This document shows positions 4,362 through 40,305 of a stretch of DNA of 64,000 nt, one piece after another. How positions within the stretch are numbered: the first letter of the stretch is position 1; each line of letters opens with the position of its first letter. Both the position numbers and the translations under genes were made by a program. The notes under the pieces are model-generated. The model was given only the letters and a program-made list of their open reading frames with translations. It ran no database searches and had not been told where the DNA came from. This DNA comes from Nitratifractor salsuginis DSM 16511 (GTDB lineage Bacteria; Campylobacterota; Campylobacteria; Campylobacterales; Sulfurovaceae): NCBI RefSeq assembly GCF_000186245.1, contig NC_014935.1:496001-560000 (forward strand). The letters run 5' to 3'.

Positions 4362-4525
4362 AGAAATAAGAAACCAGAAACAAGTAACTAGAGAAAGGGA
4401 GCGTTGAGCGTTGAGTGTTGAGCGTTGAGTGATATGAATTCACAACTATTAATGACTTCCAAAACTTATTGAAGGGATTACTTGGGACTTGAAGGGCGAA
4501 GCCCCGTGCTTGCGACTTGCGACCG
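4362..4525. repeat. Heptamer arrays between murD and mraY
   Basis: Bases 4362-4431 form ten contiguous 7-bp units that drift from agaaata/agaaacc to ttgagcg/ttgagtg without losing phase. Bases 4477-4525 form a second in-phase run (gggactt, gaagggc, gaagccc, cgtgctt, gcgactt). It includes a small hairpin, GGGC-GAA-GCCC, at 4494-4504. No gene is supported between 4340 and 4535. Confidence 0.85.
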
Positions 4526-7205: not shown

Positions 7206-7949
7206 ATGAAATTTAGCGGAAAGAATGTGCTGGTCACGGGTGCCAGCCGGGGAATCGGAGCCCAGATCGCCAAAACTCTGGCGGGATACGGGCTGAAGGT
7301 TTGGATCAACTATCGCAGCGGAGCCGAAGAGGCCGAAGCGGTCAAGAGTGAGATTCTGGCGGCTGGAAGTCAGGCTGAAACGGTGGGCTTTGACGTGACC
7401 GACGAGGAAGCCTTCGTTTCGGCGATCAAGCGGATCGTCGAAGAGGATGGGGAACTCAGCTATCTGGTCAACAATGCCGGCATCACCAAGGACAAACTGG
7501 CGATGCGGATGAAGACCGAAGAGTTTATGGCCGTGATCGAGGCCAACCTCAAGTCAGCCTTCATCGGATGCCGGGAAGCCCTCAAAGTGATGGGCAAGAA
7601 GCGTTTCGGCTCCGTGGTCAATGTAGCCAGTATCGTGGGCGAGACCGGCAATGCGGGTCAGACCAACTACGCCGCCAGCAAGGGGGGGATGATCGCCATG
7701 ACCAAAAGCTTCGCCCAGGAAGCGGCCCCCCGCGGGATCCGCTACAACGTCGTCACCCCCGGTTTTATCGCCACGGAGATGACCGATGTGCTCAAGGAGG
7801 AGATCAAAGAGGCTTTCATTGCCAAGATCCCCTTGGGACGTTTCGGAGAACCGGCTGAGGTGGCAGAGGCGATCGCATTTTTGCTCAGTGACCACGCCTC
7901 CTATGTCACCGGAGAGACCCTAAAAGTCAACGGCGGCATGATGATGTGA
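7206..7949 (+). CDS. fabG: 3-oxoacyl-ACP reductase
   Basis: A 247-residue short-chain dehydrogenase that reduces 3-oxoacyl-ACP with NADPH during fatty acid elongation. Seen in the sequence are the cofactor loop TGASRGIG (10-17), the NNAG motif and the catalytic YAASK. The ATG is preceded by AAAGGAG at 7193-7199. The other fatty acid genes (acpP, fabF, accA) are about 28 kb away. A 106-bp structured repeat begins directly after its stop codon. Confidence 0.93.
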   Translation: MKFSGKNVLVTGASRGIGAQIAKTLAGYGLKVWINYRSGAEEAEAVKSEILAAGSQAETVGFDVTDEEAFVSAIKRIVEEDGELSYLVNNAGITKDKLAMRMKTEEFMAVIEANLKSAFIGCREALKVMGKKRFGSVVNVASIVGETGNAGQTNYAASKGGMIAMTKSFAQEAAPRGIRYNVVTPGFIATEMTDVLKEEIKEAFIAKIPLGRFGEPAEVAEAIAFLLSDHASYVTGETLKVNGGMMM

Positions 7950-8215
7950 GCGCCGTGAAGCCGGTGACACCTGCGTGTCGCCGGTAGGTGCGAAACCGGA
8001 GGCGATGTGCGGGCGAAAGCCTGCACCGCCGAAGGCAGGGAAGCTTGAAAAGCGTGCGCCGTCAAGCCGGTGACACCTGCGTGTCGCCGGTAGGCGCGAA
8101 ACCGGAGGTGATGTGCGGGCGAAAGCCTGCACCGCCGAAGGCAGGGAAGCTTGAAAAGCGTGCGCCGTGAAGCCGGTGACACCTGCGTGTCGCCGGTAGG
8201 CGCGAAACCGGAGGC
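7950..8215 (+). repeat. 106-bp tandem structured repeat, 2.5 copies
   Basis: Copies start at 7950, 8056 and 8162 (period 106); the third stops at 8215. They differ at only a few positions. Each full copy can fold into strong hairpins. The first is CCGGTGACAC-CTGC-GTGTCGCCGG (10 bp with one G-U, 7961-7984 in copy 1). The second is GCGGGC-GAAA-GCCTGC, a GNRA-capped stem at 8009-8024. A smaller GCC-GAA-GGC stem follows. A third pairing, CCGGT with ACCGG, competes with the first stem. No convincing coding frame runs through it. It lies between fabG and a response regulator and may be a structured RNA, a transcript-end element or a REP-like repeat. Confidence 0.85.
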
Positions 8216-8250
8216 CGTTAAACTATAGTCAGCGAGGGTAAAGGAGTGAG

Positions 8251-8940
8251 ATGAACGAGCAGACCGCTGGGAAGATCCTGCTGCTGGAGGATGACCGGCT
8301 CTACAGTGAAACCCTCTGCGACTGGCTGGAGGAAGAGGGGTTTGCGGTTCACCCTTGCTACGATCCTCAAAGTGCTTTCGATGTCTGCTATCAAGAGCCC
8401 TTCGACCTCTATCTTTTTGATATCAATCTGCCGTTTCAAAACGGCTTGGAGACTTTCCGTCAGCTGCGTGAGAGCGGGGACAGGACCCCGGTGATTTTCC
8501 TGACCAGCAGGGAAGACAAGGCCTCCCTGCTGGAGGGCTTCGCGATCGGAGCCGATGACTACCTGCGCAAACCGGTGGATCTGGACGAGCTCAGCGCCAG
8601 GGTCCGAGCAGCGCTCCGCCGGAAAAACCCTCAGAGAAATATCCCTTTGGGTCCTTATCGGATGGATACCCGAAGTCGCGATCTTTTCCTGGATGGGCAG
8701 CCGATGAAGCTGGGGCGAAAACTCTATGATCTGCTGGAGCTTTTCGTCGAGCGTTCCGGTGAAGTGGTCACCCAGGAAGCGATCAAGGAGCGCCTCTGGC
8801 ACTCTGACGAGGAGGCGAGTGAAGGGGCGATCCGGGTCTACATCGCCCGGCTCAAAAAGCTTTTCCCCGATGCCATAGAGAATATCCGGGGAGTGGGTTA
8901 CCGCTTCGATCTTTCCCACGTCAATGAGGAGAGGGTGTGA
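8251..8940 (+). CDS. OmpR-family response regulator
   Basis: A 229-residue receiver plus winged-helix DNA-binding protein. The acidic pocket is LLEDD (11-15), the phosphoacceptor is Asp57 in LFDINLP, and the conserved Lys lies in LRKPVD. The C-terminal half has the winged-helix end GAIRVYIARLKK...IRGVGYRF. It overlaps the downstream kinase by 4 bp, so it is part of a cognate pair. It is a close paralog of the orphan regulator at 23016. Its place upstream of nosZ suggests control of denitrification or metal genes, which is inference. Confidence 0.92.
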   Translation: MNEQTAGKILLLEDDRLYSETLCDWLEEEGFAVHPCYDPQSAFDVCYQEPFDLYLFDINLPFQNGLETFRQLRESGDRTPVIFLTSREDKASLLEGFAIGADDYLRKPVDLDELSARVRAALRRKNPQRNIPLGPYRMDTRSRDLFLDGQPMKLGRKLYDLLELFVERSGEVVTQEAIKERLWHSDEEASEGAIRVYIARLKKLFPDAIENIRGVGYRFDLSHVNEERV

Positions 8941-32011: not shown

Positions 32012-32212
32012 TGAGTGAGGAGTTAAGAGTGAGGAATGAGGAGTTTAGGGATGCTTTTAGCACTATAGCGAGAGATCAGGCATTGGGCATTGGGCATTGG
32101 GCATTGGTAATTTTCTTTTATAACCTCTTTTTTCTAGTTACTAGTTACTTGTTACTTGTTACTCAAAATAAAATCTTCCATCTTCCATCTTCCATCCTCA
32201 ATCCCTGCGACG
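32012..32212. repeat. Heptamer arrays between permease and ATPase
   Basis: Several in-phase runs follow one another: gaggaat-type units at the start, ggcattg repeated three or four times near 32080-32105, ctagtta drifting to cttgtta near 32130-32163, and cttccat units near 32175-32205. An open frame of about 70 codons (32008-32229) crosses the whole region but consists of repeat translation (LGIGHWALVI), so I do not call it a gene. Confidence 0.85.
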
Positions 32213-32909: not shown

Positions 32910-33118
32910 TGCGTAGTGTGTAGAAGAGTCGTTGGTCGTTGGTCGTTGGTCGTTGGGAGACGTCAGGCATTAGGCATTGGGCATTGGGCACTGGGGAGCG
33001 ACTTTGCCACTTTATCCGTGTTACGTGTTAGGTGTTATGTGTTAAGAAAAAAGCTTTGCAAAGCAATGCATACCGAAATTCCTCATTCCTCATTCCTCAT
33101 TCCTCATTCAAAAAGAGG
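32895..33118. repeat. Heptamer arrays and palindrome between ATPase and membrane protein
   Basis: Runs in phase include ggtagtg/cgtagtg near 32895-32925, gtcgttg four times near 32927-32956, gcattgg near 32965-32990, cgtgtta drifting to tgtgtta near 33017-33044, and attcctc units near 33078-33110. A perfect 12-bp palindrome, GCTTTGCAAAGC, at 33053-33064 precedes the attcctc run. Confidence 0.88.
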
Positions 33119-37092: not shown

Positions 37093-38034
37093 ATGGCCAC
37101 CTATCTCGATTTCGAAAAACCGATCGAAGCGATCCAAAAGGATATCGAGTCGGCCAAGGCCCGCGGGGATCAGGATGCGGTTGAGATCCTCGAAAAAGAG
37201 TTGGGGAAGGAGGTCAAAAAGACCTTCGGCTCTTTGAGTGATTATCAGAAACTCCAATTGGCCCGCCATCCCGACCGTCCCTATGCATTGGACTATGTGC
37301 GCCGGATTATGGAAAATGCCCAGGAGATCCACGGAGACCGGATGTATCGGGACGATCCGGCAATCCTCTGCTATCTGGGCTGGATCGGCGGGCAGAAGAC
37401 CGTTCTCATCGGTGAGCAGAAGGGACGGGGGACCAAGCATAAACTCCGCCGAAACTTCGGAATGCCCCATCCCGAGGGGTATCGCAAAGCCCTTCGGGCC
37501 GTGAAGCTGGCGGAGAAGTTCGACATCCCCGTGCTGATGCTCATCGACACTCCGGGCGCCTATCCGGGGATCGGTGCCGAGGAGCGGGGCCAGAGCGAAG
37601 CGATCGCCAGAAACCTCTTCGAACTCTCCGGCGTCAAGGTTCCCCTCATCTCCGTCGTCATCGGCGAGGGAGGCTCTGGCGGGGCCCTGGCTATCGGCGT
37701 GGCGGACAAGCTGGCGATGATGCGCTATTCGGTCTTCGCCGTTATTTCGCCCGAAGGATGTTCCGCCATTCTCTGGAACGATCCCAGCAAGGTAGAGCAG
37801 GCGACCAAAGCCCTCAAGATCACTCCCGATGCCCTCAAAGAGTACGGTCTCATCGACGACATCATCGACGAACCCCTCATCGGTGCCCATCGGGATATGG
37901 ACAGTGCCGCCGAAAAGGTCAAAGAGTACTATCTCCAGTCCGTCCGAAGCCTGCGGGAGTTGAGCAAAGAGGAGCTCGTGCAGAAGCGCTACGAGAAACT
38001 CACCTCCATCGGGGCCTACAAAGAGAATGAGTAG
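37093..38034 (+). CDS. accA: Acetyl-CoA carboxylase carboxyltransferase subunit alpha
   Basis: A 313-residue subunit that moves the carboxyl group from biotin to acetyl-CoA, giving malonyl-CoA. ATG 37093 gives the usual [18 protein letters not shown] start. Conserved regions include [46 protein letters not shown] and [15 protein letters not shown]. It follows fabF after 10 bases. The terminal NE-stop is the first unit of a heptamer array. Confidence 0.96.
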
Positions 38035-38170
38035 GTGAATGGTTAATGGTGAATGATGAATGATGAATGGTTGCGGTAAGCATCGCTTAGCGATGCTCTT
38101 GATTAAAAGACGGGGCTTTGCAGAGCAAAGCCATCCAAAATTCCTCATTCCTCATTCCTCATTCCTCATT
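38029..38170. repeat. Heptamer arrays with two hairpins before dedA
   Basis: In-phase units gtgaatg, gttaatg, gtgaatg, atgaatg, atgaatg run from the accA stop. Two perfect hairpins follow: AGCATCGCT-T-AGCGATGCT (38079-38097) and GGCTTTGC-AGA-GCAAAGCC (38114-38132). Then come attcctc units at about 38140-38168. The second hairpin plus attcctc run repeats the layout seen at 33053 and 39498. Confidence 0.88.
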
Positions 38171-39414: not shown

Positions 39415-39558
39415 AAGTTAACAGTGAATAGTTTTGGATGTGTTGCGATGCAACACTTTCATTGAAATGGAGACAATATATGATTATTGAAAAAAAAGTT
39501 TTGCGAAGCAAAACCAACCACAATTCCTCATTCCTCATTCCTCATTCCTCATTCGCTA
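39403..39558. repeat. Heptamer arrays with two hairpins before hisG
   Basis: In-phase units gttaatg, gttaaaa, gttaaca, gtgaata, gttttgg start in the last codons of coaX. Two hairpins follow: GTGTTGC-GAT-GCAACAC (39440-39456) and GTTTTGC-GAA-GCAAAAC (39498-39514). Then come attcctc units to about 39554, just before the hisG ribosome site. Confidence 0.88.
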
Positions 39559-40199: not shown

Positions 40200-40305
40200 T
40201 AAATGAACGAGGAGTGAGGAATGAGGAATGAGGAATGAAGAACCGAAAAACAAAATCTCTCAATACTCAATCTTCAATGTTCCAGTGACTAATCCTATAA
40301 AATTG
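40200..40305. repeat. Heptamer arrays between hisG and a methyltransferase
   Basis: gaggaat units (about 40210-40236) are followed, in phase, by tctcaat, actcaat, cttcaat (about 40255-40275) and less regular sequence to the next start. Confidence 0.82.

Follow-up and report, generated by a model that had tools for sequence, protein, structure and literature searches.

The window analysed here is a stretch of 64,000 nucleotides (positions 496001-560000) of Nitratifractor salsuginis DSM 16511, whose single-contig genome has 2,101,285 bases. Its gene fabG is followed by a tandem array, 7950-8215, to which Tandem Repeats Finder assigns a period of 106, 2.5 copies and 96% matches. The array begins on the base after the fabG stop codon, and a repeat search places the starts of its copies at 7950, 8056 and 8162 (Table 1). 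An earlier note made from the letters alone had described two and a half near-identical copies of a 106-bp unit from the fabG stop; coordinates, period and copy number are all as it had them, and the G/C and T/C differences between copies that it named are present. Three of 106 positions distinguish unit 2 from unit 1 (8 G/C, 40 T/C, 54 C/T), and one of 54 distinguishes unit 3 from unit 1. Two of the three differences between the full units are C/T exchanges within stems that leave G-U or G-C pairs, and the third lies in an internal loop.

Each 106-nt unit has a predicted fold of -55 kcal/mol, with z = -5.1 and -3.7 and 0 of 200 shuffles as stable for either, and the reverse complement of unit 1 has z = -2.5. 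A covariance model, R1, built from an alignment of 11 hand-chosen units (A1), gives eight matches in the genome, three of them in the fabG array. The match to unit 3 (63 bits, genome 504162-504244) extends beyond the repeat. No second full copy of the array is found by blastn in the same genome.

Table 1. Features of the fabG locus (window positions)
Feature	Position	Strand	Basis and details
fabG (3-oxoacyl-ACP reductase), host gene, 247 aa	7206..7949	+	ORF; ends ...GGC ATG ATG ATG TGA
fabG TGA stop codon, probably the left end of the element and not the native stop	7947..7949	+	Inferred here from orthologue comparison
Unit 1	7950..8041	+	R1 90.6 bits, E 5.5e-19; fold; covariation
Unit 1, module A	7950-7991	+	P1 7950-7954/7987-7991; P2 7960-7970/7975-7985; loop CTGC 7971-7974
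Unit 1, module B	7992-8041	+	Pairs 7996-7997/8034-8035 and 8001-8004/8027-8030; GAAA hairpin 8007-8026
14-nt tail of unit 1, AGCTTGAAAAGCGT	8042..8055	+	Exact 14-nt repeat, recurs at the end of unit 2
Unit 2, architecture as unit 1	8056..8147	+	R1 90.7 bits, E 5.0e-19; 97% identical to unit 1
14-nt tail of unit 2	8148..8161	+	Sequence; Tandem Repeats Finder
Unit 3, partial: whole module A and first 12 nt of module B	8162..8215	+	Repeat search
Response regulator ORF, next gene, 35 nt behind the array	8251..8940	+	ORF; downstream DNA aligns to the empty site of G001 (L168)

Elsewhere in the window, Tandem Repeats Finder reports several arrays of 7-bp units with 4-5 copies each. The unit ATTCCTC occurs at three places (33078-33109, 38140-38170, 39523-39554), and other 7-bp units form arrays at 4399-4429, 32079-32107, 32928-32956, 38034-38071 and 40205-40242. 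They recall the TAACTGA heptamer arrays that reportedly occur in Beggiatoaceae.

A two-module RNA element dispersed in Campylobacterales

The element is about 85-92 nt long and has four helices in two modules. Module A consists of an outer stem P1, a 5x1 internal loop GTNAA/A and an 11-pair stem P2 with a CTGC loop; module B is an extended hairpin with a GA-rich internal loop and ends with GGCWGGGA. The 10-bp stem with a 4-base loop of the earlier note is P2, which has 11 pairs when one G-U is counted and the loop CUGC. The note's GNRA-capped stem is found with its GAAA cap, at 8 bp instead of 6, and its list of structures missed the outer helix of module B together with P1, which covaries strongly in relatives.

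In A1, which was not model-fitted, 99.2% of the cells at 22 pairs are paired and 13 of these pairs show changes on both sides. Covariation is 0.667 against 0.201 after shuffling (0/500), and slid versions reach at most 0.080. R1 run over 97 loci yields 132 matches; the resulting alignment A2 is model-fitted and so favours the structure, with 96.5% of cells paired among 124 distinct units, double changes in 20/22 pairs, and a covariation of 0.590 against 0.159 shuffled and at most 0.068 slid. Compensatory changes in homologues, on which the proposal of a structured RNA had been staked, are thus strongly evident in both sets. The P2 loop is CTGC in 92 of the 124 units and the internal loop is mostly GTNAA. 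With the nearly invariant G-U pair at the base of P2 excluded, G-T/T-G cells outnumber A-C/C-A cells by 28 to 6 in the best 60 rows (p 2e-4), by 47 to 13 in 90 rows (p 1e-5) and by 55 to 19 in 105 rows (p 3e-5). Since G-U pairs exist only in the strand as written, this excess argues that the sense RNA is kept folded. Base -3 pairs formally with model position 46 (T-A 79, G-C 15 of 124), which is only a lead because it is largely a difference between two subfamilies.

Module B is found alone in tandem in L013 (1527-1713, 50 bp x 3.7) and L024 (1409-1545, 56 bp x 2.4), so that modules A and B can amplify separately. Decayed copies without P2 or other parts are found in L147, L134/L301/L302 and L306 and are useful for tracing loss.

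Related stretches are detected by blastn over 60 relatives, some of them again directly after fabG, and the succession of fabG and element recurs in other genera. A covariance-model search across relatives, suggested in the earlier note, gives R1 matches in 146 of 398 genomes of the order and in 46 of 87 genera (E 0.01 or better); 11 candidates were scored per genome, which makes the copy numbers lower bounds. A deeper scan of 12 genomes yields 26, 16, 15, 11, 9, 8, 5, 4, 4, 4, 4 and 0 matches. Among 200 genomes drawn from the phylum 31 are positive (E 0.001), all 31 in Campylobacterales. An exact pattern of the element retrieves 51 stretches from a species-level genome collection, every title being Campylobacterota: Sulfurovum, Nitratifractor, Sulfurimonas, Sulfurospirillum, Arcobacter or less closely named members. 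The element pattern has 0 matches in viral contigs, and blastn of the array against 72,556 plasmid and 50,697 phage records gives no match; carriage by a virus, phage or plasmid is rejected on these negative results.

The tandem arrangement and the strong folding could also be those of a locus-specific duplication of a terminator or of a random GC-rich hairpin, belonging to no family. The order-wide family with its covariation refutes this explanation and 7800-8400 has 0 terminator-like sites, so that we find it scarcely credible. The same count dismisses an intrinsic terminator, a GC stem followed by a T run. The fabG array probably arose, in our judgement, by local amplification from a single copy of a Campylobacterales element that is dispersed, non-autonomous and mobile-like.

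These small dispersed elements of Campylobacterota form an apparently undescribed family. No earlier description was recognised in open-licence PMC text. Rfam finds a single family at threshold in the whole window, a tRNA elsewhere; in 7850-8300, with E up to 10, the best hit is Clostridiales-2 (17.9 bits against a threshold of 58.6), and at nine further element loci only rRNA and tRNA are found. A known Rfam RNA family is discarded, since the element reaches no gathering threshold at the loci examined. Hammerhead, HDV and hatchet ribozymes do not match the layout of the element, judged from their familiar layouts. An integron attC site is rejected as well: the internal loop has a GTTRRRY-like word, but no inverse core is seen opposite to it by eye.

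Stop codons, empty sites and other positions

From the 132 R1 matches 112 were kept, the rest being duplicate listings or low-scoring, giving 101 distinct first copies and 92 at 40 bits or more. Forty of these 92 directly follow the stop codon of an ORF with 70 aa or more, starting at the very next base (offset 0). The other 200 offsets hold a mean of 0.185 first copies and at most 6, at offset 10, where the ORF reads into the element and terminates at the element's GTTAA-type stop. TruD, NAD kinase and FabI are hosts of such own-stop fusions. The remaining 52 of the 92 first copies, counted as not lying at an ORF end, have no clear target word among them. The four bases preceding first copies are GTGA in 52, ATGA in 19, GGGA in 6 and others in 15 (n=92).

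The last sense codon is ATG or TGG in 35 of the 40 offset-0 hosts, as counted from the list, against Met or Trp in 4 of 209 genes that have no element close by; the Fisher test of this excess was run on 34/40. By host family, in our own grouping, 14 of 19 end in Met or Trp (tested as 13/19, p 1e-13). The offset-0 hosts, identified by Pfam or sequence, are mostly housekeeping genes: fabG, groEL, FAD oxidoreductase, NosL, L,D-transpeptidase, RNase J, histidine kinase, LysM protein, RimP, RadA, SerS, type II secretion F, transport permease, RidA, trigger factor, NuoD, ArgJ, a ThiS-like protein and one family-less ORF. The array of aptamers considered for this locus finds no support, as the hosts belong to at least 19 unrelated gene families and copies also lie in rRNA operons. 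An aptamer or riboswitch array is rejected on this mixture of hosts and on the lack of a constant downstream gene.

The 3' flanks of orthologues were read by eye, and the sites being related, the following counts are not independent. Among 30 fabG orthologues 12 are occupied and 18 empty; for the FAD oxidoreductase (n=30) 13 are occupied, 13 empty and 4 unplaced; for RimP (n=30) 7 are occupied and 23 empty; and in the best 15 of 30 NosL loci 8 are occupied, 3 of them by decayed copies, and 7 empty. TGA is the stop codon at 37 of the 40 occupied orthologous sites, compared with 11 of the 61 empty ones (p 3e-14, related sites), and 3 occupied sites have TAA. Empty rimP genes mostly end in TGG AAT/AAC and a stop (WN), some in TGG and a stop; the Asn codon is missing from the 7 occupied genes, every one of which has TGG|TGA|G. 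The rimP of G434 (L277) ends GAC TGG|TGA|G, against DWN with TGG AAT TAG or TAA in its relatives L279 and L278. From these sequences the element apparently brings its own TGA stop codon. At the window's fabG the TGA is probably also the left end of the element and not the native stop; this is only inferred, because the empty fabG site of G001 (L168) ends in TGA too. A bacterial SECIS was considered and set aside, since in the copies examined by eye readthrough of the UGA would end at another stop no more than a few codons later.

In the occupied fabG site of G457 (L185) about 138 nt separate the TGA from TTTGAC, and in the empty sites of G030 (L193) and G452 (L192) the flanks rejoin 1-2 nt after the stop, without evident target duplication. 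One and the same site is found occupied and empty with intact flanks, as looked for in a mobile element, at fabG (L185 against L193 and L192) and at rimP (7 against 23). A direct-repeat score of 12 or more is reached by the flanks of 15 of 110 arrays and by 11 of 548 mismatched controls. Strong repeats are those of L083, L130, L095, L129, L264, L093, L075, L084, L133, L131 and L260, where the left copy ends 0-6 nt before P1. In direct-repeat-flanked copies the left repeat stops before (K)GA, which is missing from the right copy (GTGA in L130; GGA in L075, L093 and L260). We do not read these repeats as a uniform target duplication, since their lengths vary between 16 and at least 77 nt, L083 and L084 resemble a tandem duplication of flank plus element, and none is found at Sulfurovaceae gene ends.

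Elements are also present around stable RNA genes. Three copies lie in the 16S rRNA leader of G039, and G084, G053 and G169 carry the element in the 16S-23S spacer. The element loci of rRNA operons are L131-L133, L254-L259 and L264-L265; in the four checked with Rfam (L132, L254, L257, L264) the element is sense to the rRNA. In L075, L083, L093 and L095 it adjoins tRNA-Asp or tRNA-Thr, lies antisense to the tRNA and is flanked on both sides by a duplicated part of the tRNA 3' end. In G169 a 5' half of tRNA-Ala is duplicated ahead of the rRNA-operon element. At L260 (1900-2100 of G053:C1:1114000-1118000) the element appears, by eye, to be embedded in a CRISPR array, the end of a repeat being duplicated on its far side.

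One rival explanation has the element belong to the host, as a regulatory cis-acting RNA inherited vertically at the 3' ends of certain housekeeping genes, apparent gains being losses elsewhere. It draws support from the strong covariation, from the recurrence after fabG, groEL, rimP, nosL and the FAD oxidoreductase in many genomes, and from the G034 and G217 orthologues, where in six of ten aligned pairs module A is 97-100% identical and the upstream DNA 84-95%; this conservation is not universal, a seventh pair (L107/L120) having 76% identity in module A. Against it, the occurrence is sporadic in every gene family examined, rimP and fabG included (7/30 and 12/30), the hosts are very mixed and the element also sits in rRNA spacers, tRNA flanks and intergenic DNA. 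The G434 element, behind a rimP whose relatives end one codon later, is a further argument against this explanation, which we hold to be unlikely.

Candidate mobilising enzymes and known repeats

No transposase, recombinase or reverse transcriptase was found travelling with the element, and no autonomous copy was found. The element-bearing genomes G005, G024, G041, G044 and G051 have no Y1 transposase match. A reverse transcriptase gene lies about 2.4 kb from the element in L260, and elements at G050:C1:1675556-1676044 and 1676927-1677272 are within 1-2 kb of another; this vicinity is not general. A reverse transcriptase as general mobiliser is rejected, being present in only 19 of 60 genomes and missing from G000 (the window's genome), G025 and G034. 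The window's genome has seven equal-scoring IS200-type transposase genes (G000:C1 844811, 1109962, 1266380, 1282679, 1401350, 1586903, 1664761). Of five IS200 copies taken from this genome, the four with a long exact overlap have ends unrelated to the element; in L097, a 256-aa Y1 gene lying 2.1 kb away from the element likewise has unrelated ends. A local mobiliser of the RAYT or IS200 kind is rejected on these grounds, Y1 not tracking the element.

PATEs derived from IS200/IS605 have subterminal hairpins and insert without target duplication, which is also the appearance of the clean fabG site. The element is unlike them in that Y1 genes do not track it and that the IS200 copies compared from the window's genome have no matching ends. 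BOX elements of Streptococcus pneumoniae are modular, RNA-folding and intergenic, with one module reiterated, features that the element shares. It differs from BOX by its unrelated sequence and stop-codon placement, and no separate right-end module was found.

A further comparison is with tagged REPs, mobilised by RAYTs. The GTAG and CGTC super-families are both placed in Sulfurovum sp. NBC37-1, and GTAG REPs often give a stop codon to flanking ORFs, according to Di Nocera 2013 (PMC3733652). As described there, a GTAG REP is a 20-40 bp palindrome with a terminal unpaired GTAG in more than 90% of the members of most families, and a CGTC REP has a terminal CGTC tag and an 8-9 bp stem. Element and REP, on these descriptions, are alike in being small, dispersed, palindromic, probably transcribed and mostly behind coding regions, some supplying the stop of the upstream ORF. 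The element stands apart by its outer stem, 5x1 internal loop, module B, conserved size of 85-92 nt in two modules and offset 0 in 40/92, and by having neither a terminal unpaired GTAG tag nor a RAYT link. Columns 70-73, at the foot of P2, read GTAG in 47, TTAG in 40 and ATAG in 19 of 124 units, and their first two bases are paired in P2. Compared by description with CGTC REPs, the element has 11 pairs in P2, and some strands of its P1, a variable stem, contain CGTC. With Y1 not tracking the element, and the L097 Y1 and IS200 ends unrelated to it, a tagged REP family of the kind listed for Sulfurovum is very unlikely. The REP-like character suggested in the earlier note stands for behaviour (small, dispersed, palindromic, beside gene ends); the architecture is the element's own.

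Preferred reading and possible function

On balance we favour a mobile-like, non-autonomous, RNA-structured dispersed repeat, REP- and BOX-like in behaviour and with its own architecture. In a large share of cases the element would enter in one orientation directly behind the last sense codon, most often ATG or TGG, mobilised in trans by an enzyme encoded elsewhere. The inserted copy would supply the TGA, the host protein staying complete or losing one residue, and would become the start of the host 3' UTR. After entry it could be reiterated head to tail.

We regard as distinctly unlikely a more particular mechanism, that of a mobile RNA inserting via translation or RNA processing, which would enter at termination points and at processed RNA sites such as tRNA arms and rRNA spacers, with UGA as its first three bases and the RNA folding around it. 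If true, the element would be a portable stop codon and 3' UTR, selecting the genes that it enters by a Met or Trp codon ahead of their stop.

An RNA-level role at the 3' end is indicated by the structure, by the sense-strand bias and by the start directly behind the stop codon. The nearest precedent is that of REPs within 15 nt of a stop codon, about 11% of those of E. coli, which are said in PMC12306157 to stall ribosomes and lower translation. The element resembles these attenuator REPs, as far as that account goes, in placing a hairpin near the stop codon of the upstream gene, and differs by the 40 of 92 first copies at distance zero, against about 11% within 15 nt. By this analogy, the folded RNA cap at the end of the coding region may slow ribosome clearance and block 3' exonucleases, a function that we propose tentatively, with an effect on translation and mRNA decay as its consequence. 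The stabiliser role that had been suggested for the array is possible.

More than a hundred copies with strong covariation across an order make this element a new RNA-level repeat to study. Because it abuts exactly on the last codon, exchanges native TAA/TAG for TGA and follows a Met/Trp rule, its insertion mechanism is directly testable. The placement after fabG, fabI, groEL, rimP and nuoD, and in rRNA operons, suggests that the element reshapes the 3' UTRs of core genes.
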